A DNA stretch of 64,000 nucleotides from Promethearchaeota archaeon (GTDB taxonomy: Archaea > Asgardarchaeota > Lokiarchaeia > Sigyniarchaeales > SOKP01). The DNA is taken from contig JAHPZJ010000025.1 in assembly GCA_019058245.1 (NCBI GenBank), positions 28,408 to 92,407 on the forward strand, given 5' to 3'. The translations under genes were made by a program, and so were the position numbers. Below are positions 6,399 through 20,659 of this stretch, piece after piece; position 1 is the stretch's first letter, and each line of letters begins with the position of its first letter. The notes under the pieces are model-generated. The model did not search any database. It saw only the letters and a list, made by a program, of their open reading frames with translations, and was not told the origin of the DNA.

Positions 6399-9300
6399 TT
6401 ATATCCTTTCTTTTAATTTTAATCTTGGAGCAAGTCCTAAACTCATCATTTCTTGTAAAAGTAATTTAAACGCATAGGAACAAACTACTTTTGAAATAAT
6501 GGTTCCTTCACCACACACGGGACAATATCGCTTATCTCTATTTCTGTCATAAACTGCTAAGAGACCACATTTTTCACATACTAAAATAACAGTCCTATCA
6601 GATTCATCTAATAATCTTTCTTTTAACAATAAGGCTGAGCCATGACCAACTAAACAATCCCTCTCCATCTCTCCAAACCTTAAACCCCCTTCACGAGCAC
6701 GACCCTCTGTAGGTTGTCGTGTTAAAATTTGAACAGGCCCCCTAGCTCTTGCGTGGAGTTTATCCGCTACCAAATGATATAATTTTTGATAATATATTGG
6801 AGCACAATATATCCCTGCTTCATACTTATCTCCCGTAATACCATTATACATTACCTCTCTTCCATTAAATTCAAAACCAGCTTCTACTAGTTGCTCTTGA
6901 AGTTTTGTTATATCTGTCCATTCGAACGCAGTAGCATCACCCAACTTACCTGTTGTACAGGCTATCTTTCCACTAATACCTTCAAATAGTTGCCCTAAAG
7001 TCATTCTTGATGGCATTGCATGAGGATTTACTATAATATCTGGAATAACACCTAAAGCAGTAAAAGGCATATCAGCTTGTTCAACAACCAACCCTAACAC
7101 TCCTTTTTGACCATGTCTAGATGAGAATTTATCGCCCAATTCAGGAATTCTTAAATCTCTCACTTTTATTTTAACTAATTTGTTCCCATCAACAGTTTCT
7201 GATATAATTACAGTATCAACAATTCCTTGTTCATTATGTCGCATATTTTTTGAAGTTTCACGCCTATTTGGTTGCATAAGCTCAAATTCTTCATAGGATT
7301 TAATAAATCTAGGCGGAGATGTTCGACCTATAAGTACGTCGCCTCCGTTCACCTGTGTTTCTGGTTCTATTATTCCATCAACGTCTGAGAGAAGGCGGTA
7401 TGATTCTGCAGATTTAAATCCTCTAACACCTCTTTCTGGAATCTCAAATTTATCAACTTCTCCACCAGGGTATTTTCTTTCTTCGGCATCATATGTTCTA
7501 AAAAAGTGACTCCGCGCTAAGCCTCGCTCAATTGAAGCTTTATTTATAATAATAGCATCTTCAATGTTAAATCCTTCGAAGCTCATCATAGCAATAATAA
7601 AGTTTTGACCCGAAGGTCTCTTATTTATCCCTATGATCTCCATCGGACTAGTTTTCACTAAAGGCTGTTGAGGGTAATGCAACGTGTGGCCTCTTGTGTC
7701 TAATCTCAAATGCATGTTTGCTGCAAATAAACCTAATGCTTGCTTTACCATTCCAGCTTCATAAGTATTTCTCGGAGATTGATTATGTTCTGGAAAAGGA
7801 ATAATAGAAGCACAGATTCCTAAAATTGCAGCAGGTGATATTTCCAAATGAGTATGCTCTTCGGTTATATCTTCTTCAAACATTGCAATATATGCATTTT
7901 CTTCTTCTTCAGCATCTAAATATTCAATTACACCTTTATGAACCAAATCTGACCAAATATACTTATTCTGTTTGAGTTTTTCTATATCATCTTTTGAAAC
8001 AAGTAAATTTTTATTCTTCAAGACAAATAATGGTCTAGTTGCCCTACCTGCATCACAATTTATCTGAATCTCTTTTGATTCATTATAATAACCAATATTT
8101 ACGTGTTGCCCAATTTCACCTTTCCTTCTTTTTTCTCTTAATTGACGGATGAATGGATTATATTGTTGATGTATTCCTACTAATTTCCCGTTCAGAAAAA
8201 CTTTTACTTTATCTCCTTTTACATTTTTGACTTCATTTATGGGGATAACTCCTAAATCAATTAGTATGTTTTCAATTATCCTCTCATCTGCTCCAACAGA
8301 TATTATTGATGCTAATCCAAGATTCTTGACTAAACCACAATTAGGACCTTCGGGTGTCTCAGCAGGACAAATTTTTCCCCATTGTGTTGGATGTAAATCT
8401 CTTGCCTCAAAGTGTGGTTGACTGCGACTTAATGGCGATATAACTCTTCTCAAATGACTTAAAGTTCCAACATGATTAGTTCTATTTAAAAGTTGACTTA
8501 CTCCTGCCTTACCTCCAACCCAATTTCCAGTTGCTAAGGCATGTCTAATTCTTTCTGTAATGACATCTGCTCTTACAGCAGTTTTAATATTTGGAGCTCT
8601 TCCTCGAACAGCAGTTCTTTCCAATTGATATTTAATATCTTTCACTAAATTTAAAAATGCCACTCTAAATAAAGATGTGAATAATTCACCAGCTAGCTTT
8701 AATCTTTTATTTGCATAATGATCCTTATCGTCGGGTTCTCTTAAATTTAATGCTAATTCCATAACTTTTTGTGCCATTTGTCCTAAATAATAGGCTTTTT
8801 TAATTCTATCTTCTTCATCATTACCTATGTGAGGTAAAAGATATCTATCTAAAACTTGAAGAGCTCTTCTAATACGGTAATCTTTCGTTTGACCGATGGC
8901 GACTCTTTTTCCTATATAATCAAGTGCATTTTGCTGAGATTTCTCTGGATCTTTTAATACTTGAATCTCAGAGGCAACATCAATTACTGGAATTAATTCT
9001 TTCTGAATTTCATCATTTTCAGAGATTGCTTCAAAAATCTCTCTATCTGAATGTAATCCCAACGAACGCATCAATATCGCTAAAGGAATCTTTCCTGGAA
9101 CTGAAGGAAATGATACTCTAAGATTGCCATCTTTCTTCCTTTCTATTGTTACAGGTGCTCTAAATCCGCTTCTAGTTGAAAATACTTTTGCTTGATGAGT
9201 TGCGCTAGAACTTCTACTTGCCTCCTCTGCCAGTATTCTATTTGGGGCTAGATCTTCTTGAGTAACAAGAACTCTTTCAGTTCCATTTATTATGAAATAA

Positions 9301-12092: not shown

Positions 12093-12926
12093 TCACTCTA
12101 TAGGAAAAAAATCGGGTAAATCTCCTGGCACTTTCAAATTCCATTTAGGTCTTCTTTTTTGAAGAAAAGACATTATTCCTTCACGTGCATCTGATTGCTT
12201 TCCTGTCCAGCTTGAATATCTATGATTTATACTCTCCACCTTATCTATATCTGTCTCGGTAAGGAATTGATAAAGCATTCTCTTTGTAAGAGATGTACTT
12301 ACAGGCGCACTTAATAATATCTCATCAGCTATTTCTCGGGCGGTATCCATTAATTTATCATCAGGTACTACTCGACTAACAAGGCCGTACTCTAAAGATT
12401 CTTGAGCATTTAAGATTCTGCCAGTATACATTAATTCAGCAGCACGACTAATTCCAATTATACGAGGTAAAATCCAGGGACATGAAATCTCAGGTAAATA
12501 ACCACGTCGATTGAATACAATTCCTAAACGTGCACTCTCGGAAGCAATTCTTATATCAAAAGGTAAAATAAATGTGACACCAATCCCAACAGTAGGACCA
12601 TTAATTGCAACTATTACAGGCTTCATCAACGAAAAAAACCGTCTAGTCATACTTCCTTCACGTCTGACCCTTTCATCTCTCTCACGTGACCTATTTGAAC
12701 CATCAAGTGCCGTAGCACCACTCGATAAATCAGCACCAGCACAAAATCCTCTTCCAGCACCAGTTAATATTGTAACCCGTAAATTAGGATCATTTTCAAC
12801 TTTCATAAGTGCATCCCAAACCTCCATCCCCATTTGCCAAGTATAAGCGTTCAAATGTTCTGGTCTGTTTAAAGTGATTGTTGCAACCTCATCTGAGGAT
12901 TGGAAAATTATTTGTTCATATTCCAT
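12093..12926 (-). CDS. Enoyl-CoA hydratase/isomerase family protein
   Basis: GAGRGFCAGADLSSG, AINGPTVGIGVTF. Confidence 0.9.
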   Translation of the reverse strand: MEYEQIIFQSSDEVATITLNRPEHLNAYTWQMGMEVWDALMKVENDPNLRVTILTGAGRGFCAGADLSSGATALDGSNRSRERDERVRREGSMTRRFFSLMKPVIVAINGPTVGIGVTFILPFDIRIASESARLGIVFNRRGYLPEISCPWILPRIIGISRAAELMYTGRILNAQESLEYGLVSRVVPDDKLMDTAREIADEILLSAPVSTSLTKRMLYQFLTETDIDKVESINHRYSSWTGKQSDAREGIMSFLQKRRPKWNLKVPGDLPDFFPIE

Positions 12927-13519: not shown

Positions 13520-13623
13520 CGGGCTATAGGGGAATTGAACCCCCGACCTTTCTTTTTAAGGGAGAACTTCCCATAAATGTCAGGTTAAAAGCCTGCTGCG
13601 CTACCTGCCTGCGCCAATAGCCC
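13520..13623 (-). tRNA. tRNA-Lys(UUU) with ~30-nt non-canonical intron
   Basis: Acceptor GGGCTAT/ATAGCCC, D-stem GCGC/GCGC, anticodon loop CTTTTAA, T-arm GGGGGTTCAATTCCCCT; 30 nt too long between anticodon arm and variable loop; discriminator G. Confidence 0.85.
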
Positions 13624-14842: not shown

Positions 14843-14943
14843 GCCTCTGTGGCTTAGTGGTATAGCAACATTTCATATCATTTCGATAAAAAGGTTAAAG
14901 ATTCGTAATCTGTAGATCGGGGGTTCAATTCCCCCCAGAGGCT
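14843..14943 (+). tRNA. tRNA-Thr(CGU) with 29-nt intron in the anticodon stem (29/30)
   Basis: Acceptor GCCTCTG/CAGAGGC, T-arm GGGGGTTCAATTCCCCC; removing 14871-14899 gives ACAGA-TTCGTAA-TCTGT; discriminator T. Confidence 0.9.
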
Positions 14944-15961: not shown

Positions 15962-16784
15962 GGATTCGATAACCTTTCTTATTTCTATGCAAGTGTAATA
16001 CAAAATAACCTAAATATATTTTTATATAATAGGTTTGTTATTAAAATTTATAGAAAAAGATAAGTCTCAAGAAAACACGAATTAAAAGTTCAATATGAAT
16101 TAGGAAATTTAAATCTCTTCTTTTTATAATTAAAATTTTTTTAAGATAAATTTCATTCCAATCTTCTTTCTTATAACGCTATTAAAGACATTGAATATAA
16201 TTATATTCCTAAATACTCTTTTTTTTTTAACATACTGAATATTATTCGGTTTAATATCAAAACATTTAAATATTATATCTAATATTATCTAATTAGTGAA
16301 TCTAGTTCGTTTGAAGAGGTTTTAAATATTTATTTACCCGATATAAAGAATAGCAAAGATGAAGAAGAATCTGTAAAATCTTTCATAGATTTCAATAAAA
16401 AGGATAAAATTTTATATGATAATCTATATATCGGAGTCTTTAAAATAGTTATCAAATTTCCAATAGAAAATAAAGACAAATTTCTAACTCAAATTAGAAT
16501 TGAAAGATTTTCATTAATGAATGATATTTTTTTAACCTCCTATTAATATTATCATTTTTTCCTTGTTTGAATTATTTCTTAATTTCAACTTGTATAATAT
16601 TCCAGCTGAAAAACAAAAACTTACATATCATTATATCATTATATATTAAATTGATATAATTAGAAAGATTGAATGATACACTCAGGATTTAAATGATAGT
16701 AAAATTTTAAAATAGTAAAAATTTCTATTTATCAATTAACCTTTCTAATAGAATCATTATAAGAGGGAAATATTAAAGGAACAA

Positions 16785-16991
16785 GCAGGGGTAGCCAAGA
16801 TTCTAGAATATATCATCTAGAACTCTACTAGATTGCCTCTATTAGACTAGAATGGAAATTTGGTCTACGGTGCTAGAATATTACGTGATTATACGTCTAT
16901 GGTGAGACTGAGGCTCTAGTGACATAGGTCTTCGTGGGTTCGAAAATCGACGTAAGTTATACGAATTCGATAGAAAATCCCACCTCCTGCA
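16785..16991 (+). tRNA. tRNA-Leu(GAG) with three introns
   Basis: Acceptor GCAGGGG/CTCCTGC + A; D-stem GCC/GGT split by ~61 nt; stem CTA|GA with loop CTGAGGC and TCTAG split by ~30 nt; T-arm GTGGG TTCGAA|T CCCAC split by ~33 nt. Confidence 0.85.
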
Positions 16992-17137: not shown

Positions 17138-20100
17138 TTAAAAAAAATCAGCTAATTTATGCTGCTTTAATTTAGGATTATTTGTCAAACTTTCTACATA
17201 TTCCTCTATTAGTTCCATCCTTTGTTTTGTATAATCATCTAAATTAAAACTTTTGCATAAATCTTTGGCACGAGGTATATATTTTTCAATCCCTCCACGA
17301 TTAACTGTTAATATTACTCGATTACCACATTTAGGACATTTTCCCCCATTCGAAATCGGAGGTCGTCTATATTTTTCATTACATTTAACGCATCGAAATT
17401 TTTGAACTGAGAATTTTCTTAAATTTCCCAGTATATCAGGATTAAAATGAGTGGTTAATATCTTTTCTGCTACATTTTTTGCGTCCACAGCTTTTATAAT
17501 TCTTGCTAGGTGAAGTTGAGCATTAATTTTATCATCCATTGTCTCATATGTTTTATAAGCAGAAGTTATTGGTCCCTCATTTATATTATCGGTAGGTATA
17601 TTATACCAAATATTTTCATATTGATTGGGTGTTCCTAAATGGCTTTTCACTAACTTCATTAGCTTTTCAATTTCAGAAGGAGAACAGTATCTTTCTGTAG
17701 CCTTATAAAATTCTAATGGATATTTTTGTAAAGTATCTATATTATGTGCTTCGATGTCTATCTCATTAGGGTCAATCTTTGTACCAATTACCAAAGTAGC
17801 ATCCATTCTACCACCAATTTTACTTGGAAGATAATGTCTTGAAAAATTCAATAAAGGATCTAAGAGTAGCATTACTCCATCTTCATCACCGTCGCAATTT
17901 CTTCTCTTTGCAGCATGCCAAAAAGGATGGGCATAAATAGATCGAGCTGGGGTAGATCCTATTATTCTACCTATTATTCCCGCACTAGTATGTGGTGCTA
18001 GACCTACAACTAGATGTCCAATTAAATTATCTCTAGCTATTATATTGTAGAAAGGTTCCATATGATAAAATAGTGTTAATTCATCATCCAGAAAATTAGC
18101 TACTTTAACAAAATATTCTGCGCAATCATCGGAAAGGATTATATCTTGTACTTTCAATTCTAAAATCTGATTATCATCTATGAGAGGATTTCCTTTAATA
18201 TCATTTCCATATCCTAAATCTTTTAGGGTGTCAATGGACGTTCCGATTTCTTTAGGTGTAAAATGAGTTAAAGGTATATCAGTAGCATCGTATCTTATTT
18301 CTGCTGTTTTGTAAACTAGTACATCATTTTTTGCCCTTAAAATACCTTTTTCAATAGGCTCAGGAACTTTATACTCATTTGTTAATCCAATTATTCCCTT
18401 TAATTTCTTGGGTAATTGAATTTTAAGTTTTTCTAAAACTTGACTAATATATTCCTTTATATTAAATTTTGCCTCACTAGATGTTTCCAGCCGATTGTTG
18501 CATTTTGGACAAGTAATTTCATAAGTAGGGTATAGCGTCTTACAATGTGAACATATTTTTTGTAATTCAGTATGCATTCCACAATTAGGACAAATATTAA
18601 AAATACTTGATCTTCCACAATTTAAACATTTTTTTCTGCATACATCAATTCTAATTTTACCCGTTTCAAAAACATTTTTTTTACTACTAATATTAAACGA
18701 ATTCTTTTTTTTGGATTCTGTTTCATTATCACCTTTTTTTTTACCAGTGTATTCTATTGCCTTTTCAAATAATCTTGTACTCCCAACAACATTACTCAAA
18801 GGAAAAAGGGCATGAACACCTTTCATACTTTTTTTCTCTGCCTTTTCAGGTCGTCCCATTCTCGATCCCATAAAATATGGGGCCTTATTTTTAATTTTAA
18901 TCAATGAAATCTTATTAAAATAAGAAAATACATTATCCTCACTTTCTATTTCCTTACATTTTTTATCATTTAAATTAAAAATAGTTTTATATATGAAATT
19001 CATACTTTCACTAAAAACTATTTTACTATTTTTTATTTTATGAGGAATAAATGCTTTTTCCAGAATTTTTTTAATCGATTCCTCATTTTTTAAAACAATT
19101 AGTTGTTCTGATTCAGAAAAATTCTTTATAAATTCTGTTCGTAATGTAATTAACTCTGTAACTGTCAAATTTCCCCAGAAATCTAGATAAAAAGGATGTA
19201 AGGGAATATCATATTTTTTCGAAATCTGGACAGCTTCTTGCGCTGTAGGAATCACTTTAAAAGGATTTTTAATAAAATTTTTTAACCTCTCATCAACATC
19301 TCCTTCATTTTTAAGAGAATTTTCCAATTCTAGTGCCCACCATTCTTCAACATACCCAGAAGGTATTAATATATGATTATTTTCGGTAAATTCTCCATAA
19401 CCAAATAGTATATCACCTAAAAATAATACTTCTTCAATTTCTGAAAAAAAAGTCTTGGCCTTTTTAACACTTGAGATTTTTATTACATTCCCATTTTTCA
19501 GTTTTACAATTGGACCAGCAATATTATTAACTGGACATATACTAGTACTTTTACCCGGACGTTCAATTCTCAACTGTGTGCCAATTGCAACAAAATCATC
19601 TAATAATGCCATCGTAGCAGGATGCATTCCGCCTGCAGCTAAACCAGTATTTCTAGATCGCCCATATCTTATCCTATGACCCCCTATTTTTGAGGGATGA
19701 CTAAAAACAGGGCGTCCTGCGATAATATCTGCAATATATTTCGAGTTTGGTGTGATTTTTAATTCTATTCGTTCCTCATTTTGCTTTCTTTTTTCTTTCG
19801 GTTCTTGATGTTGAGCAATTTTCTTTAAATCTGCCAACCAATCCCAACCTTCTAAGTTCATAGCTTTAGCTATCTTTAGTAACTTTGGTGCCTTAAGTAA
19901 AATGCCATCATTTAAAACTAAGCAAGCACCACCTCTTATTTTATTTGTTTCAATCCTAGGTAAATCTCTAAAAGCTGAAACCTCTTCATCCTCAGTTGAA
20001 TCACCATTTATTTCCACAGGTAAATTGCTGACAGCATATCGAATCTCTTTAGTAGATGAAGGGTATTGCAAATGCACTCTTCTATCATATAATTTTACCT

Positions 20101-20659
20101 CTTCAACGTATCGACCAATTTCCCCATCAGTTGCTTTATATTTAGGAAGATTTGATTTTTTTCTTACATAATCTGCAATTAATACACATAAAGCCGTAGT
20201 AGTACCTCCTGCAGCTCGAATGGGGCCCGCAAAGTATAATGATAAATATTTTTTTCCTAAATTATCTTCTCGAATTAAAATTTTAGAAATACCTTCTAGT
20301 GGTGCACTTACAACCCCCATAGTTTTAATTGCTAAACCTACTCTAATAGCTCTATCCACTCGCGCCTCTAATGTATCAATACTTCCAATTTTTCTATCTA
20401 AAATATCAGTAACTACTTTAAAAATTAGTTCATCTTCAGTTAAGTCCTTCTTTTTTAACTCCCTTATTAATTCTGCCACTCCTTTTGGCCCTACCAATTT
20501 CTCTACCCTTCCTGCTAAATCTTTTGCTTGAGGGGATTCCACTTCTAATTCAGGATCTAATCCTTTTTGTCGTGCTCTTTCTGCAATTGAATAGCACTTA
20601 TCTACTTGTTTTTGAATTTGATTAAAGTATAATTCCATCGTTTTGCTCATATCATGCAA
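17138..20659 (-). CDS. polC: DNA polymerase D large subunit DP2
   Basis: FAGPIRAAGGTTTALCVLIADYVR, HPFWHAAKRRNCDGDEDGVMLLLD, zinc-finger pairs. Confidence 0.96.
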   Translation of the reverse strand: MHDMSKTMELYFNQIQKQVDKCYSIAERARQKGLDPELEVESPQAKDLAGRVEKLVGPKGVAELIRELKKKDLTEDELIFKVVTDILDRKIGSIDTLEARVDRAIRVGLAIKTMGVVSAPLEGISKILIREDNLGKKYLSLYFAGPIRAAGGTTTALCVLIADYVRKKSNLPKYKATDGEIGRYVEEVKLYDRRVHLQYPSSTKEIRYAVSNLPVEINGDSTEDEEVSAFRDLPRIETNKIRGGACLVLNDGILLKAPKLLKIAKAMNLEGWDWLADLKKIAQHQEPKEKRKQNEERIELKITPNSKYIADIIAGRPVFSHPSKIGGHRIRYGRSRNTGLAAGGMHPATMALLDDFVAIGTQLRIERPGKSTSICPVNNIAGPIVKLKNGNVIKISSVKKAKTFFSEIEEVLFLGDILFGYGEFTENNHILIPSGYVEEWWALELENSLKNEGDVDERLKNFIKNPFKVIPTAQEAVQISKKYDIPLHPFYLDFWGNLTVTELITLRTEFIKNFSESEQLIVLKNEESIKKILEKAFIPHKIKNSKIVFSESMNFIYKTIFNLNDKKCKEIESEDNVFSYFNKISLIKIKNKAPYFMGSRMGRPEKAEKKSMKGVHALFPLSNVVGSTRLFEKAIEYTGKKKGDNETESKKKNSFNISSKKNVFETGKIRIDVCRKKCLNCGRSSIFNICPNCGMHTELQKICSHCKTLYPTYEITCPKCNNRLETSSEAKFNIKEYISQVLEKLKIQLPKKLKGIIGLTNEYKVPEPIEKGILRAKNDVLVYKTAEIRYDATDIPLTHFTPKEIGTSIDTLKDLGYGNDIKGNPLIDDNQILELKVQDIILSDDCAEYFVKVANFLDDELTLFYHMEPFYNIIARDNLIGHLVVGLAPHTSAGIIGRIIGSTPARSIYAHPFWHAAKRRNCDGDEDGVMLLLDPLLNFSRHYLPSKIGGRMDATLVIGTKIDPNEIDIEAHNIDTLQKYPLEFYKATERYCSPSEIEKLMKLVKSHLGTPNQYENIWYNIPTDNINEGPITSAYKTYETMDDKINAQLHLARIIKAVDAKNVAEKILTTHFNPDILGNLRKFSVQKFRCVKCNEKYRRPPISNGGKCPKCGNRVILTVNRGGIEKYIPRAKDLCKSFNLDDYTKQRMELIEEYVESLTNNPKLKQHKLADFF

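Follow-up and report, generated by a model that had tools for sequence, protein, structure and literature searches.

A tRNA-Leu(GAG) gene with introns at three sites, one of them probably a twintron, in a Lokiarchaeia archaeon

Asgard archaea are the archaeal group closest to eukaryotes. A 2024 study reports that in Atabeyarchaeia and Freyarchaeia introns occur in most tRNA genes, are often non-canonical and in over half of the cases multiple (PMC11291895). In Thermoproteales such as Pyrobaculum and Thermofilum, introns with a bulge-helix-bulge (BHB) splice motif occupy several non-canonical positions and are missed by default finders (PMC4390854, PMC8450103, PMC3218864), and the maximum reported per tRNA gene is three (PMC4033280, PMC4390854). 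Introns within introns, or twintrons, are known for groups I, II and III, and there the inner intron must leave first (PMC11782384).

Here we describe a tRNA-Leu(GAG) gene in the window, as we call the whole 64,000-nt stretch of DNA that was analysed. The likeness to the multi-intron tRNAs of Atabeyarchaeia and Freyarchaeia lies in the Asgard host, and the differences are another class (Lokiarchaeia), a probable nested intron and an orthologue series of gain and loss in one gene; as such genes are already reported to be common in those lineages, a multi-intron Asgard tRNA is less surprising than the first-pass annotation of this DNA had held. With Thermoproteales the locus shares multiple non-canonical BHB introns and an (alpha-beta)2 endonuclease, here predicted, but their genes carry at most three introns, whereas four, one of them nested, are proposed here. 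The likeness to group I, II and III twintrons is an intron within an intron; in the present case both would be protein-spliced BHB introns of about 30 nt in a tRNA. A search of the open literature, whose coverage left out key primary tRNA-intron papers, found no nested BHB or tRNA introns in archaea. The basic phenomenon, a multi-intron tRNA in Asgard archaea, is thus already known, and the nested BHB pair, as read from the sequence, appears to be without a precedent that we could find.

Architecture of the gene

The source genome (3.09 Mb in 31 contigs, 76% complete) carries a tRNA-Leu(GAG) gene with introns at three sites. The gene adjoins a Ras-family GTPase gene and has DNA polymerase D on its other side, in the window as in the seven congeners examined, and the window polymerase D large subunit (DP2) is 68-85% identical to DP2 of Candidatus Lokiarchaeota / Lokiarchaeia. 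Small inserts of 59, 30 and 33 nt, following tRNA positions 15, 30 and 59, respectively, cut the coding sequence into four pieces, with the layout GCAGGGGTAGCCAAG [59] TTTGGTCTACGGTGCTAG [30] ACTGAGGCTCTAGTGACATAGGTCTTCGTGGGTTCGAA [33] TCCCACCTCCTGCA. The features, in window coordinates, are as follows:

16617-16799, +: 5' flank and exon 1, common, along with intron 1, to the relatives L039 and L041; 77-80% identity over this stretch with L184 and L185, which come from those same two genomes
16785-16991, +: the tRNA-Leu(GAG) gene
16785-16799, +: exon 1 (GCAGGGGTAGCCAAG), tRNA positions 1-15, comprising the acceptor 5' strand, D-stem GCC and AAG; from alignment with intronless orthologues
16800-16858, +: intron 1, 59 nt, D-loop 15/16, probably a twintron
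16800-16822 plus 16853-16858, +: outer 29-nt intron of the probable twintron; from BHB scan, shuffles and enforced folding
16823-16852, +: proposed inner intron, 30 nt, BHB [CTAG][AA^C][TCTA..TAGA][CTAG][AA^T]
16859-16876, +: exon 2 (TTTGGTCTACGGTGCTAG), remainder of the D-arm up to position 30; from orthologue alignment and ARAGORN
16877-16906, +: intron 2, 30 nt, anticodon stem 30/31, BHB CGG[TGCT][AG^A][ATA..TAT][GGTG][AG^A]CTG
16907-16944, +: exon 3 (ACTGAGGCTCTAGTGACATAGGTCTTCGTGGGTTCGAA), positions 31 to 59, with the anticodon GAG at 16910-16912, the variable arm, the T-stem 5' strand and TTCGAA
16945-16977, +: intron 3, 33 nt, T-loop 59/60, BHB GTGGG[TTCG][AA^A][ATCGA..TCGAT][AGAA][AA^T]CCCAC
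16978-16991, +: exon 4 (TCCCACCTCCTGCA), T60, the 3' strands of T-stem and acceptor, and A73
17138-20659, -: DNA polymerase D large subunit (DP2), the syntenic anchor for finding orthologues

Exact removal of all three inserts restores a complete 85-nt class II tRNA-Leu(GAG), which ARAGORN calls as such at 85 bases, its acceptor, D, anticodon and T arms all complete; for any of the six forms with one or two inserts taken out it calls nothing. The unspliced gene gives no tRNA by ARAGORN and stays below the threshold of the Rfam tRNA model RF00005, so that two standard finders miss it, as the first-pass annotation had expected of default finders. Default tRNA annotation would report Leu(GAG) missing from such genomes.

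Each insert fits a BHB splice motif in which two 3-nt bulges flank a helix of about 4 bp. The central helices are weak in the window, those of introns 1 and 3 pairing at three of four positions with one G-A mismatch each and that of intron 2 pairing at all four, mostly through G-U. The sequence, the coordinates, the Leu(GAG) identity (to which ARAGORN agrees once the inserts are removed) and the location of the inserts in D-loop, anticodon stem and T-loop are as first described, and so is the length of the last insert, put earlier at about 33 nt and found to be 33 nt between positions 59 and 60. Other details change, with exact splice sites moving by 0-2 nt: BHB-consistent boundaries give intron 1 a length of 59 instead of about 61 nt, intron 2 keeps its approximately 30 nt while its split, previously placed one nt too far 5', comes to lie between positions 30 and 31, and the mature molecule, rightly assigned to class II, measures 85 and not about 83 nt.

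Variation of the inserts among orthologues

Orthologues were found by synteny, downstream of the DNA polymerase D large subunit, in about 30 Lokiarchaeia genomes, where they carry from zero to three inserts. No insert interrupts the gene in L024, L025, L033, L034, L037, L038, L040, L043, L046, L048, L049 and L050, 12 orthologues in all, and given this range the exon boundaries follow directly from natural variants of the gene. The locus is not a product of chance, because in Lokiarchaeia this syntenic position is held by intronless as well as differently interrupted orthologues. A tRNA gene that keeps its place and varies from zero to three inserts across these genomes offers a natural experiment on tRNA intron gain and loss.

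The inserts of the interrupted orthologues, present singly, in pairs or in threes with overlapping sets of sites, lie in the D-loop near positions 14-16 or near 20, in the anticodon stem at 30/31, in the variable arm and in the T-loop at 59/60. At least one was present in 17 of the 17 congeners with a readable locus. On the polymerase D tree the 30/31 insert requires at least five changes and the T-loop insert at least nine, counts that do not separate gain from loss; with so many changes, insert presence is patchy. Inserts are optional at the same site among orthologues, as is characteristic of BHB tRNA introns, and intron 3 is precisely missing from several of them.

Two further observations concern individual relatives. 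L044 (JAHQWH010000189.1) is similar to the window genus in its Leu(GAG) exons and T-loop intron, yet its polymerase D falls among genomes that have the gene uninterrupted; judged from these sequences, a lateral replacement of the tRNA gene is possible. In L021 and L022 the D-loop and anticodon-stem introns of one gene are similar in sequence (AATA..ACG....TACGTTTATGGC) and look as if they had been copied from one site to the other.

The D-loop insert and its possible origin

All other inserts catalogued in orthologues of the gene measure 26-35 nt, against 59 nt for the D-loop insert, which we regard as probably a twintron, a 30-nt BHB intron lying inside a 29-nt BHB intron. Four carriers of this insert were compared: the window, L039, L041 and contig L191 of the genome G069. 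The best BHB site pair common to all four delimits the 30-nt inner intron (16823-16852), with four of four central pairs and 3-nt bulges, and none of 2000 column shuffles gave a shared motif as good. Removal of the inner intron leaves a 29-nt outer intron with a 7-bp hairpin, TTCTAGA/TCTAGAA, whose position and geometry (the latter by inspection) match the single 28-30 nt introns of L031 and L045. The arms ATTCTAG/CTAGAAT pointed out in the first-pass annotation do exist, and TTCTAGA pairs better with the nearer TCTAGAA once 16823-16852 has been taken out. Since the D-loop insert is probably two nested introns, the gene would have four, so that the three introns counted at first stand as three insert sites.

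The main alternative, which we hold to be rather unlikely, also gives a functional tRNA: the 59 nt would leave as one intron, with the long-range helix TTCTAG/CTAGAA setting the cuts at 16800 and 16858. Its BHB, with 3-nt bulges, is likewise present in all four carriers, and the mature product would be identical. In enforced folding, however, the inner BHB has an advantage of 4.0-8.5 kcal/mol over this motif in each of the four; a single intron would also leave the invariant TCTAGAA (16816-16822) without a role and be about twice as long as every other orthologue insert. Covariation says little about the twintron because the four carriers are 94% identical, and when the complete pre-tRNA was folded, pair probabilities were not appreciable for either BHB of intron 1, nested or single. 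A search for an allele with the outer intron only returned a sole match, with three mismatches, which was the known twintron itself. Under the twintron reading, excision of the inner intron is predicted to create the outer splice signal in the four carriers, and a nested BHB intron, if true, would force a splicing order on a protein-spliced tRNA.

The twintron may have a history distinct from that of the rest of the gene. The match to L039 and L041 covers intron 1 together with exon 1 and the flank 5' of it, and L047, the nearest readable relative by polymerase D, has no D-loop intron. On the reverse complement of 8500-8760, L039 holds a truncated native Leu(GAG) 5' half with its own 30/31 intron, which breaks off in the anticodon loop. 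Some 400 bp separate it from the intact gene downstream, and a decayed 76-aa ORF follows it. From its sequence this 5' half looks like the scar of an event within the tRNA, either integration or recombination. No truncated copy of this kind was found upstream of the window gene, the match there being limited to the shared flank, and no integrase was found as the source of the L039 insertion, a remnant of at most about 400 bp. The arrangement resembles the recombination model for the tRNA-Thr(GGU) of Caldiarchaeum (PMC3293823). There, close relatives differ at one locus through gained introns and a fragmented tRNA, and L039 likewise keeps a 5'-half fragment beside the intact gene; the difference is that a mobile element integrated there, whereas here no integrase was found. 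We give roughly even chances to a history in which the gene has four BHB introns, two of them nested, and the nested pair arrived with a foreign tRNA 5' half by recombination or element integration. If so, ordered splicing and lateral exchange would both shape the tRNA introns of Lokiarchaeia.

An integrative element was tried as donor of the 5' half and set aside: the intron-1 sequence is missing from viral contigs, the 76-aa ORF of L039 has no Pfam match, and the G069 contig with the same allele carries ordinary metabolic genes. The surroundings of the gene vary as well. An enoyl-CoA hydratase-like ORF (12093-12926, -; by inspection) is absent at that place in seven congeners, and congeners have an ORF of about 330-395 aa (M28 peptidase-like by inspection) between the tRNA and polymerase D that the window does not have. 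In L041, G013, G021, G025, G029, G037, G039, G044 and G058 the polymerase D large subunit has frames of roughly 1640-1720 aa that are interrupted near residue 925, probably by inteins.

Splicing and the tRNA complement of the genome

Across orthologues the insert 2 motif reads CGG[YGCT][AG^A][ATA..TAT][GGYR][NN^A]CTG. Over 12 sequences, 96.4% of its cells are paired, versus 21-53% for slid versions, and the pairing is compensatory, with changes on both sides in five pairs and in 13 cells; its covariation score was matched by none of 500 shuffles. The intron 3 motif ranks first among 139 BHB candidates in the locus; its outer helix is the T-stem, and [TTCR] pairs with [NGAA] in the central one. 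In some orthologues, by eye, a double change preserves the central pairing at 59/60, with TTCG/CGAA in L023 and TTCA/TGAA in L044. It is improbable that the splice sites lie one or two nt away or that one insert is excised by a non-BHB enzyme: direct repeats at the boundaries do allow one to three equivalent DNA junctions, but BHB geometry, with 3-nt bulges on both sides, selects a single one for each insert.

Two separate PF01974 genes of the genome encode alpha and beta-like splicing-endonuclease subunits. The alpha subunit (197 aa) is catalytic and aligns along almost its entire length with the Aeropyrum pernix enzyme 3p1z, its closest PDB entry; the beta-like protein, on inspection of the sequence, lacks the catalytic His. 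A KPR of alpha aligns with Lys44-Pro45-Arg46 of the 'Crenarchaea-specific loop' in A. pernix, residues that matter for cleavage (PMC12397907; PMC6379350), and Tyr, His, Lys and KPR are kept in 30 of 30 Lokiarchaeal alpha sequences. We infer that alpha and beta-like subunits assemble as (alpha-beta)2. The A. pernix (alpha-beta)2 endonuclease is thus alike in its catalytic Tyr/His/Lys and loop KPR, and differs in that the present alpha is Asgard and known from sequence. A KPR loop in the Lokiarchaeal endonuclease extends the link between this loop and an intron-rich tRNA set beyond Crenarchaea.

The locus is very probably a working Leu(GAG) gene of Lokiarchaeia, with BHB folds cut by an (alpha-beta)2-type endonuclease and exons then ligated. 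Splicing and its order, as we infer them, would run as follows. The transcript would fold into BHB motifs, the (alpha-beta)2-type endonuclease would cut each bulge after its second nucleotide, and a ligase would join the exons. The 30-nt inner intron (16823-16852) would leave first, and its removal would join TTCTAGA...TCTAGAA, the 7-bp hairpin, to TGGA, so that the BHB needed to release the outer 29 nt arises at 15/16.

The first-pass annotation had proposed looking for an intact Leu(GAG) elsewhere, and none was found within the 76%-complete genome, where BLAST with the exons gave only this gene, Leu(UAA) and a weak Leu(CAG), anticodons read by eye. A decayed or silent pseudogene, with a working Leu(GAG) elsewhere, is very hard to credit, since, for all that the genome is incomplete and tRNA 5'-half copies occur in the relative L039, every exon stem pairs, A73 is retained, nearby genes use CTT/CTC for 20% of their Leu codons, and congeners retain the gene at this site, the other Leu matches inspected in 18 of them being CAA, UAG, CAG and UAA and none GAG. 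G069, which belongs to another genus, has two genes for Leu(GAG). One adjoins polymerase D; the other, of the window type and carrying the nested D-loop insert, is on another contig, which may be a binning error.

Other tRNAs of the genome (G000) were sampled by family and pattern searches, and inserts are absent from only 5 of about 20 genes; the intron content may be higher still, as the search model overlooks genes with several introns. Within the window three tRNAs were seen, all of them intron-bearing. At 13520-13623 (-) lies a tRNA-Lys(TTT) that Rfam alone detects; about 30 nt are inserted in its variable region. At 14843-14943 (+), where ARAGORN calls a tRNA-Ile(GAT) at 14851-14943, a fold with an anticodon-stem intron of about 28 nt gives ACAGA/TCTGT around TTCGTAA, a tRNA-Thr(CGT), and the Ile call is probably wrong.
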